A DNA stretch of 64,000 nt from Arthrobacter gallicola. GTDB taxonomy: Bacteria > Actinomycetota > Actinomycetes > Actinomycetales > Micrococcaceae. Location: positions 115,016-179,015 of the forward strand of contig NZ_JACSQD010000004.1 in assembly GCF_014836775.1 (NCBI RefSeq), written 5' to 3'. Under the pieces are notes generated by a model. That model worked only from the letters and a program-made list of their open reading frames with translations. It had not been told where the DNA came from and did not search any database. A program made the position numbers and the translations under genes. Shown here piece after piece: positions 1,103 through 38,604 of the stretch; the stretch's first letter is position 1; each line of letters starts with the position of its first letter.

Positions 1103-1383
1103 AACGCCTTCTTCTTTGAATCGGGTTGGCGGAGGTTATCCGCCACCTCCACCATATATACATTTACATCTATCTGCCCGGCGGGGGCGGGGGCTTCCGC
1201 TGCAGGGGCCGGTTGCGCTAGTGTTTGCAGTGCTTCACGAGATGTGGCCTCCTTCCCCCCGGTACCAACCGGTCAGGAAAAGCTCCGACTGGCCTCACAC
1301 CAACCCCATTGTTCGGCGGGTGGTTCGGATGACGAAGCGGCCCGCTTCCAACCGGAGCGGGCAAGGACAACTCCCTGCGAAGG

Positions 1384-36622: not shown

Positions 36623-37732
36623 TCAGGCTGCTGCGCCACGGACGGAACGCCGGCGGCGGGCAGCCCCGGCCAGGACGGCCAGGATCCCGGCCGAGGTGTC
36701 CCAATCCATGCACGCATCCGTAATACTCTGCCCGTAGGTCAGCGGACCGGGGCTGGCGCTGTCATGTGCCTGGGCGCCGCCCACCAGGAAGCTCTCCAGC
36801 ATGATGCCGGCTACCAGGTCCGCGCCGGTTGTTCCCGATTCAACCTGGGCCGCCAGTTCCAACGCCACCTGGGCCTGCCTGCGGTGGTCCTTGCCGCTGT
36901 TGGCGTGGCTGGCATCCACGATGACCCGGGGATTCAGGCCCTTGGCCGCCAGCGACGCCGACGCAGCCGCTACATGGCCGGCGTCGTAATTTGGTCCTGA
37001 GCTGCCCCCGCGGAGAATCAGGTGCGTGTCCGGGTTGCCCGCGGTGCCGACCATCGCTGCCCGCCCGCCGCCGTCGATCCCCAGGAAGGACTGCGGCGCA
37101 GAAGCTGCGGCACAGGCGTCCAGCGCGATCTGCAGCGACCCGTCGGTGCCGTTTTTGAAACCCACGGGCATGGACAGTCCGGAGACCAGCTGGCGGTGGA
37201 TCTGGCTTTCAGTGGTCCGCGCGCCGATCGCTCCCCAGCTGACCAGATCGGCGACGTACTGCGGGCTGATGGGTTCCAGGAATTCGGTCGCCGTCGGCAG
37301 GCCCAGTTCCCCGGCGGCGAGGAGGAAGCGGCGTGCAGCGTGGAGACCGCCGGCGATGTCGTGGCTGCCGTCCAGATGCGGATCATTGATGAGGCCCTTC
37401 CAGCCCACCGTGGTCCGCGGCTTTTCGAAGTAGGCCCGCAGCACCACCAGCAGGTCCTGGCGGTGTTCCCGGGCAGCCTCAGCGAGGCGGCGCGCGTAGT
37501 CCAGTCCGGCGTCGGGATCATGGATCGAGCAGGGGCCAACGATCACCAGGAGGCGGTCGTCGACGCCGTCGAGCACCGCGCGGATTTCATCGCGGCTTGA
37601 GCTGACGGCGGCGGCGAGTTCGTCCGAAAGCGGCAGCTCGGCCCGCAGGTCCGCGGGCGCCGGAAGCGGACGGAATTCGCTGACGCGCAGGTCGGAAGTG
37701 GATTTGGAATGCTGCGTGGTGGTGAGGTTCAT
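36623..37732 (-). CDS. 3-deoxy-7-phosphoheptulonate synthase (DAHP synthase, class I-alpha)
   Basis: First enzyme of aromatic amino acid synthesis: phosphoenolpyruvate plus erythrose 4-phosphate give DAHP. At 369 residues it matches AroF/AroG/AroH enzymes. Motifs are VIVGPCSIHDPD near residue 65, AYFEKPRTTVGWKGLINDP, GAIGARTTESQIHRQLVSGLSMPVGFKNGTDG, RGGSSGPNYD and VIVDASHANSGKDH. The start ATG at 37732 lies 118 bases past the stop of an aromatic-rich leader peptide, so expression is probably set by attenuation. Which aromatic amino acid inhibits the enzyme cannot be read by eye. Confidence 0.95.
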   Translation of the reverse strand: MNLTTTQHSKSTSDLRVSEFRPLPAPADLRAELPLSDELAAAVSSSRDEIRAVLDGVDDRLLVIVGPCSIHDPDAGLDYARRLAEAAREHRQDLLVVLRAYFEKPRTTVGWKGLINDPHLDGSHDIAGGLHAARRFLLAAGELGLPTATEFLEPISPQYVADLVSWGAIGARTTESQIHRQLVSGLSMPVGFKNGTDGSLQIALDACAAASAPQSFLGIDGGGRAAMVGTAGNPDTHLILRGGSSGPNYDAGHVAAASASLAAKGLNPRVIVDASHANSGKDHRRQAQVALELAAQVESGTTGADLVAGIMLESFLVGGAQAHDSASPGPLTYGQSITDACMDWDTSAGILAVLAGAARRRRSVRGAAA

Positions 37733-37754
37733 GGTCCCGTTATCCGTGTGTGAA

Positions 37755-37877
37755 CCGGCGGGAGTAGTCTTCAGAAACCCCGCCGGATATGGCGAAGGGC
37801 AAGGGATGAATCCCCTGCCCTGTTGGCTCTGAAGGTTGGCGTCAGCGAATTATCGCGCGGGCTCCTCCAGAGCCAAC
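37755..37877 (-). promoter_or_regulatory. Candidate transcription attenuator of DAHP synthase
   Basis: On the transcript, GTTGGCTCTG (37877 to 37868, inside the leader ORF) can pair with CAGAGCCAAC (37831 to 37822). The overlapping CTTCAGA (37834 to 37828) can instead pair with TCTGAAG (37775 to 37769). That last segment is the loop of a hairpin whose arms are 37786-37779 and 37762-37755 (8 bp). A further imperfect stem spans 37820-37797. The two pairings of the middle segment exclude each other, which is the logic of an attenuator. No T-tract follows the last hairpin. Confidence 0.6.
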
Positions 37878-37906
37878 GAAAAATACGCATACCAACGGTT
37901 AGTCAT
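37850..37906 (-). CDS. Leader peptide of the DAHP synthase gene, 18 aa
   Basis: Predicted peptide MTNRWYAYFSLALEEPAR. Residues 5-9 are Trp-Tyr-Ala-Tyr-Phe, so four of five consecutive codons are aromatic: a sensor for charged tRNA-Trp, tRNA-Tyr and tRNA-Phe. The ATG stands six bases after a -10 box and has no Shine-Dalgarno, so the peptide is probably translated from a leaderless message, as proposed for several actinobacterial amino-acid leader peptides. The codons after the aromatic run form one arm of the first RNA hairpin. It lies 117 bases upstream of the enzyme's ATG on the same strand. Confidence 0.8.
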   Translation of the reverse strand: MTNRWYAYFSLALEEPAR

Positions 37907-37912
37907 GGGTAG

Positions 37913-37941
37913 ACCGTAAGCCCCCAGCGCGCGCATGGCAA
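37913..37941 (-). promoter_or_regulatory. Promoter of the leader peptide-DAHP synthase unit
   Basis: TTGCCA (37941-37936) and TACGGT (37918-37913) are separated by 17 bases. The ATG of the leader peptide follows the -10 box by six bases, placing the transcription start at or next to the first codon. Confidence 0.65.
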
Positions 37942-38064: not shown

Positions 38065-38129
38065 TTTGCCTAGGCTGCATTCGCCGGAGGCGCGGTCCCG
38101 AGGGTTTACCTCCCGTTTGGAACGTGCCA

Positions 38130-38345
38130 GCCGTTCCGTGACGGGCTTCCCTCCGCTTTGGGAAAACCCAGCCGTTTTGTGACGGGCTTCCCTCCGCTTT
38201 GGGAAAACCCAGCCGTTTTGTGACGGGCCTCCCTCCGCTTTGGGAAAACCCAGCCGTTTTGTGACGGGCCTCCCTCCGCTTTGGGAAAAACCAGCCGCTT
38301 TGTGACGCGGTTTGCCTCCGTTCTGGGAAAACCCAGCCGTTTTGG
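38130..38345. repeat. 41-bp tandem repeat array, five full copies plus edges
   Basis: Copies start at 38130, 38171, 38212, 38253 and 38294, and a partial one at 38336. Degenerate sequence before 38130 looks like another half copy. The inner copies are nearly identical and the outer ones more diverged. Each unit carries GGGAAAACCC and CCGTTTTGTGACGG, both with small self-complementary arms. Confidence 0.92.
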
Positions 38346-38479: not shown

Positions 38480-38488
38480 ATCGGGCCG

Positions 38489-38604
38489 ATTCGCCGGACA
38501 CCAGCCTGGCGGGCGAGCGGGACGGAGCCGCCGGACGCTCGGTTCGATTCGCCGGACGCCCAGCCTCGCCGGCGGGAGGGACGGTGCCGCCGGACGCAAC
38601 ATGC
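38489..38604. repeat. 58-bp repeat, two copies
   Basis: ATTCGCCGGAC starts at 38489 and 38547. Each copy continues through an AGCCT..GGCGGG segment to GCCGCCGGACGC, with several substitutions between the copies. Confidence 0.75.

Follow-up and report, generated by a model that had tools for sequence, protein, structure and literature searches.

A probably leaderless aromatic leader peptide and mutually exclusive RNA pairings, a putative attenuator, upstream of a type I DAHP synthase gene in Arthrobacter gallicola

An aromatic leader peptide before a DAHP synthase gene has a described precedent in aroR of Corynebacterium glutamicum, a leader that is reportedly leaderless. Its Phe-Tyr-Phe run before aroF is published (passages of PMC4046766, and of PMC11802643 and PMC7356990 citing Neshat 2014), it responds to Phe limitation according to the passage of PMC11802643 that cites Neshat 2014, and leaderless small ORFs are reported in a C. 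glutamicum set (PMC4046766). The 2005 survey of Actinobacteria reported no aro attenuator, nor any conserved element in other amino-acid pathways (PMC1262725), and the excerpted text of an S. lividans survey names no aro leader among its eight (PMC8079986). Leaderless mycobacterial Cys leaders have been predicted (PMC1262725), and translation attenuation of Cys genes is mentioned in the literature (PMC13236596).

The locus analyzed in this study lies in a window of 64,000 nucleotides from Arthrobacter gallicola (the whole stretch of DNA that was analyzed; positions 115,016 to 179,015 of contig NZ_JACSQD010000004.1, assembly GCF_014836775.1). The following features were recognized, listed in the order of transcription with window coordinates. 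Helices are named by their segments (1:3, 3:4, 4:5), and 5:SD stands for segment 5 paired with the Shine-Dalgarno region.

37913..37941, minus strand: promoter, with -35 TTGCCA at 37941-37936, a 17-nt spacer and -10 TACGGT at 37918-37913 (from the sequence and relatives)
37850..37906, minus strand: leader ORF of 18 codons plus TAA, MTNRWYAYFSLALEEPAR (from the sequence; conserved in relatives)
37894-37880, minus strand: sensor codons UGG UAU GCG UAU UUU, within the leader ORF
37864..37877, minus strand: segment 1, GUUGGCUCUGGAGG, within the leader ORF, pairing with segment 3 (screen and covariation)
37859..37867, minus strand: segment 2, around GAGCC at the ORF end, a candidate small hairpin GGCUC/GAGCC with the segment 1 core (by eye)
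37822..37835, minus strand: segment 3, CCUUCAGAGCCAAC, with segment 1 or segment 4 as partner (screen and covariation)
37796..37821, minus strand: hairpin T, 11 bp, whose stem resembles a terminator and is followed in the window by a weak U tract (ranked first for covariation in the all-helix screen)
37779..37796, minus strand: hairpin X, UUCGCC (37796-37791) with GGCGGG (37784-37779), an alternative to 4:5 (screen and the fold with segment 3 free)
37769..37786, minus strand: segment 4, made of a GGCGGG part (pairing with segment 5 or in X) and a part UUUCUGAAG (37777-37769, pairing with segment 3)
37755..37763, minus strand: segment 5, UCCCGCCGG, with segment 4 or the Shine-Dalgarno region as partner (complementarity to its own Shine-Dalgarno region)
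37735..37739, minus strand: Shine-Dalgarno-like CGGGA of the DAHP synthase gene, pairing with segment 5 (UCCCG) (from the sequence)
36623..37732, minus strand: type I (aroG-type) DAHP synthase, 369 aa (TIGR00034 aroFGH, 461.7 bits against a cut-off of 173.2)

Like aroR, the locus carries an aromatic leader peptide, here too probably leaderless, before a DAHP synthase gene, and the idea, which the first-pass annotation described as not commonly annotated for Trp, Tyr and Phe together in this group, has a precedent in the published aroR passages. Comparison with the Corynebacterium-like leaders L191 (MRNWRFYFEWGSGR) and L192 (MWRFYFSKAPEAETS) showed that both share segment 1, segment 3 and hairpin T with the window, arranged in identical order, the aroR locus itself being compared by description; peptides of this type begin MWRFYF.. 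and MRNWRFYF... This common segment order makes the window element a further member of the aroR kind. Unlike the F-Y-F run of aroR, however, the sensor run in the window is W-Y-A-Y-F, that is, with Trp added, and the window family differs from L192 in the weak U tract of T and in the presence of 3:4, 4:5 and 5:SD, which are not evident in L192. With the E. coli trp, his and phe leaders and the actinobacterial trp and ilvB attenuators (PMC1262725) the element shares sensor codons, competing pairings and repeated segments, segments 1 and 4 being alike and both complementary to segment 3; unlike them, it has a hairpin between segments 3 and 4, and a segment after 4 that pairs with the Shine-Dalgarno region replaces the U tract. 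The mycobacterial Cys leaders resemble it as short ORFs rich in the sensed amino acid with no clear terminator, but concern another amino acid and another gene.

Outside the actinobacteria, aroG leaders such as MSAKFYFYFFWHLRPLADREG and MITVATSYFWYFSYDSSLAAGGSRSI occur in the Burkholderia group (L030, L040, L055, L061, L062, L071, L074, L078) and likewise in Bradyrhizobium (L068, L076, L079) and Mesorhizobium (L047). In those read, the ORF contains CTGGCGG and a CCGCC..GGCGG hairpin is accompanied by a long T run; judged by these signatures, these leaders are classical attenuators reading Phe, Tyr and Trp. The pairing of the ORF strand with the first arm of a true terminator in Burkholderia and Bradyrhizobium supports the general attenuation logic.

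The enzyme gene, with its start ATG at 37732 on the minus strand, had been named a DAHP synthase gene. The TIGR00034 match upholds the identity, which a PF00793 domain match also supports. The gene encodes one of two first-step enzymes: it is the only type I DAHP synthase found in the genome, and a type II enzyme is also present, as it is in 29/29 genomes of the genus, 12 of which (12/29) have a detected type I gene. Hence the putatively leader-controlled type I gene encodes an accessory first-step enzyme and not the sole one. At one type I locus of the genus (G022:C1:714725-715773) the aroG consists of two overlapping frames, perhaps a broken gene, behind an intact leader (L093). The intergenic region that separates the leader promoter from a divergent L-lactate dehydrogenase-like gene contains a tandem array at 38127..38344 (5.3 copies of a 41-base unit, 92% match) and a second, 59-base array at 38487..38597. 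A SAM-IV riboswitch is found at window positions 1233..1373 on the plus strand (50 bits against a cut-off of 38).

Analysis of the upstream sequence confirmed the -35/-10 pair with 17-base spacing that the first-pass annotation had placed before the ATG at 37906. Six bases (CTACCC) separate the -10 box from this ATG, and no Shine-Dalgarno site was found 5' of it. Among 60 distinct RWYAYF-type leaders, TANNNT ends 6-7 nt 5' of the leader ATG in 59, against a mean of 1.9 and a maximum of 6 when the upstream sequence was shuffled and TANNNT was counted 5 to 8 bases before the ATG; TTG at 17-18 nt spacing above the -10 box was found in 49 of the 60, and the upstream sequence outside the promoter boxes varies freely. 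The position of the -10 box in 59/60 leads to the expectation that transcription starts at, or adjoining, the A of the leader ATG. This agrees with the start proposed earlier, and the leader mRNA is probably leaderless.

The aromatic 18-codon ORF recurs across relatives, and its conservation together with the promoter position rules out a chance ORF. The comparison of related genomes that had been proposed as a check found the leader at every type I aroG locus of the family that was fetched, namely all 12 type I loci of the genus, six Arthrobacter loci of the named collection and all 40 further family loci. The motif CGNTGGTAYGCNTAYTTY was present in 77 of 197 family genomes, 76 of which hold a type I aroG; all 76 have the identical 18 bases CGTTGGTATGCGTATTTT, though the pattern permits 128, and the remaining match (G460) uses different, GC-rich codons. 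Apart from G460, family members without a type I aroG (among the 197 genomes) lack the leader, and the motif with its exact codons occurs once in the A. gallicola genome; use of the element ahead of other genes was accordingly rejected. In the class-wide sample, taken beyond this family, every readable locus has an aromatic leader except 16 (one further locus was masked), counts that are not independent of the motif since the leader search selects aromatic runs. The sensor run appeared as RWYAYF, RWYWRF, RWYWRY, YWRF, RYPYF, YFWF and WRFYF. The leader is real and kept in most of the actinobacteria examined. No Rfam covariance model matched at gathering scores, the best weak match (E 0.63) falling far below the cut-off, and a riboswitch or T-box identity was ruled out.

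The 16 loci of the class sample without a leader all belong to family f23 (L098, L099, L103-L105, L107, L110, L111, L114, L118, L122, L124, L125, L127, L133, L149), which seems to lack or to have lost the element. One clade (L145, L146, L148, L150, L067, L072, L209, L210) has YFWF leaders that stand 11 bases from segment 1; among those read, segment 3 leads directly into a hairpin CGAGCCGG..CCGGCUCG that no U tract follows, and by its sequence this clade has a different version of the switch.

The sensor run consists of four aromatic codons in five before DAHP synthase, and such runs are kept in 129 leaders. The leader peptide probably gauges how much Trp, Tyr and Phe is available. Analysis of codon choice revealed that the Tyr and Phe codons of the leader, UAU and UUU, are the reverse of genome usage. 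In 52 leaders outside the Micrococcaceae-type set UAU outnumbers UAC by 62 to 3 and UUU outnumbers UUC by 54 to 5, whereas UAU 1 to UAC 88 and UUU 0 to UUC 124 were counted in aroG genes from 17 actinobacterial loci, and the genes within the window have UAU 65 to UAC 239 and UUU 95 to UUC 486. The bases that determine UAU and UUU fall outside the 1:3 helix, and the choice could be due to slow wobble reading or else to freedom from structure. Usually one tRNA reads both UAU and UAC, or both UUU and UUC. Leader codon bias has been treated as a matter of competing isoacceptors (PMC1183508), an account that would not apply here if a single tRNA serves the two codons. From the first base of the last aromatic codon to the segment 1 core (GGCYC) the distance is 8 nt in 118/129 leaders, as it is to GGCUCUG in the window; it is 11 nt in nine leaders and 9 nt in two.

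The peptide is strongly conserved within the family, as would also be expected if it were itself active, either as an arrest peptide or as a small functional protein, and not a sensor of codon speed. We consider this very improbable, since across the class its residues change while the aromatic content, the U-ending codons and the distance to segment 1 stay, and since RNA pairing accounts for the C-terminal half.

The leader RNA folds to a minimum free energy of -80.3 kcal/mol, compared with -56.6 +/- 4.5 kcal/mol for shuffled sequences (z -5.3). When every possible helix in 60 aligned leaders was screened without bias, hairpin T ranked first and the 14-bp helix 1:3 second, with 4:5, X and 3:4 also among the highest. 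In a further screen, in which each species' own segments were compared with segments of other species, T and 4:5 emerged again, and in addition segment 5 with the Shine-Dalgarno region. The pairing of the ORF with a segment past its stop codon, proposed earlier as 10/10, exists and covaries, its length being 14/14 with segment 3, including one G-U pair. The strands of 1:3 are nearly invariant within the family. Over 129 actinobacterial leaders (60 distinct combinations) they covary, and the search for compensatory changes suggested earlier found clear ones, such as C-G in 35 and U-A in 16 at core position +5 and U-A in 26 and G-C in 17 at +9. In these 129 leaders own strands pair at 11.9/14 positions compared with 10.4 for swapped strands, and the permutation tests leave some effect of shared ancestry in this and the other covariation and coevolution statistics.

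The alternative pairing of CTTCAGA with TCTGAAG in the loop of the last hairpin, also proposed in the first-pass annotation, is likewise supported: CUUCAGAG (37834-37827, segment 3) is able to pair with UUUCUGAAG, which sits in the loop of the hairpin CCGGCGGG/CCCGCCGG (37786-37779 / 37762-37755) before the enzyme ATG. The 3:4 duplex reaches -15.5 kcal/mol against -9.0 for shuffled partners. Pairings 1:3 and 3:4 are mutually exclusive, and they are placed so that a halted ribosome changes the predicted fold. The earlier scheme had missed the strong hairpin T (37821-37796), which lies between the pairing partners, and a fifth segment able to pair with the Shine-Dalgarno region. A scan for complementarity to the Shine-Dalgarno region gave a single species-specific peak, segment 5 (own -10.0 kcal/mol, other species -7.8 kcal/mol; t -5.4). 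Segment 4 was tried as the main anti-Shine-Dalgarno strand and rejected, for it beats shuffled sequence but without species specificity; segment 5 is therefore preferred as the strand pairing there.

Overall, we hold it reasonably probable that the element works by ribosome-mediated attenuation through a leaderless leader peptide, in which 1:3 would be the ON and 3:4 the OFF pairing. Transcription would begin at the leader ATG, where a ribosome would initiate without a Shine-Dalgarno site. When charged tRNA for Trp, Tyr or Phe is scarce, we infer that the ribosome would stop on UGG-UAU-GCG-UAU-UUU and leave segment 1 free, so that 1:3 and 4:5 would form and the Shine-Dalgarno site of the enzyme would be open. 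With ample aromatic amino acids the ribosome would reach the stop codon and mask segments 1 and 2, upon which 3:4 would form around hairpin T and the released segment 5 would cover the Shine-Dalgarno site, keeping expression low. In the logic of known leaders 1:3 is the shortage state and should thus be ON, which fits the freeing of the Shine-Dalgarno site by 4:5.

A halted ribosome covers about 12 bases beyond the A-site codon. By this arithmetic a halt on Trp5 or Tyr6 leaves segment 1 free, a halt on Tyr8 or Phe9 partly covers it, and one that has reached the stop codon hides the greater part of segments 1 and 2. With the covered stretches masked, folding gave 1:3 a probability of 0.98 for Trp5 and Tyr6, 0.46 for Tyr8 and 0.06 for Phe9, where 3:4 rises to 0.76. 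The end states of the window RNA were 1:3 with T and 4:5 (Trp5/Tyr6), and 3:4 with T, X and 5:SD (segment 3 free). Under a simple stop-codon mask seven bases of segment 1 remain unmasked, so that 1:3 keeps a probability of 0.68; this residual pairing should be impeded by an actual ribosome sitting in the loop.

The same parts could also work with the reverse sign, a halted ribosome covering segment 1 or leaving a 1:2 hairpin, with 3:4 as ON and 1:3, formed after normal translation, as OFF. The 8-nt gap (118/129) would bring a halted ribosome near enough to cover segment 1, the Phe9 simulation yields 3:4, and the mean accessibility of the Shine-Dalgarno site and AUG is slightly higher in the 3:4 state; over 55 species the ON state predicted by the preferred scheme does not raise mean Shine-Dalgarno accessibility (0.35 compared with 0.42, and 0.34 compared with 0.41 in a second run). 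Trp5 and Tyr6, however, at 20 and 17 nt, leave segment 1 free. Sensor codons stand at similar distances in the E. coli trp leader. Moreover, 3:4 releases segment 5, the very strand that coevolves with the Shine-Dalgarno region, and we regard the reversed switch as unlikely. Since a Phe9 halt favours 3:4, the preferred scheme, with 1:3 as ON, does not treat all sensor codons alike, and this misfit together with the mean accessibility limits confidence in its sign to a moderate level.

With regard to the level of control, under classical transcription attenuation T would be an intrinsic terminator and regulation would act there, as has been inferred for aroR of C. glutamicum. The all-helix screen supports T better than any other helix, true U tracts follow it in several relatives (L182 UUUUUUAU, L194 UUUUUUCUUU), and C. 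glutamicum is reported to make short aroF leader transcripts (PMC4046766). In the window, however, the tail of T (UCGCCAUAUCC; UCGCCAUAU) is weak and the terminator scan makes no call; most species have UUCGYCRUUU-like tails, with clear U tracts in few (L182, L194). The helix screens, the unbiased one included, revealed no segment competing for the arms of T, and T folds at all simulated ribosome positions (about 0.98). Termination at T is therefore not switched by the pairings found, and T was rejected as a base-pair-controlled terminator; at the window leader no terminator with a U tract prevented by an alternative pairing was found. Regulated termination at T is, in our view, a doubtful though possible account. 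T may terminate transcription in species of the L182/L194 type, and in the proposed mechanism it may additionally terminate some transcripts. That segment 5 coevolves with the Shine-Dalgarno region speaks for translational control in the family, besides or instead of termination; attenuation probably acts at least partly on translation, and both kinds of control may apply.

No description of the phylum-wide spread, the fixed register or the inverted codon choice was found in the open-licence papers that were searched. Tentatively, these leaders may represent one ancient attenuator class over most actinobacteria, which would read three aromatic amino acids through wobble-read UAU and UUU at a fixed distance and act on translation by a chain of 1:3, 3:4, 4:5 and 5:SD around an inserted hairpin. 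If the attenuator reading is right, a control point of the shikimate pathway in many actinobacteria, producers of antibiotics and amino acids among them, is a leader that gauges Trp, Tyr and Phe supply as one pool. UAU and UUU in GC-rich genomes would then offer a direct test of whether wobble-read codons sharpen attenuators when one tRNA reads both codons, a case that falls outside the selective-charging theory for isoacceptors.
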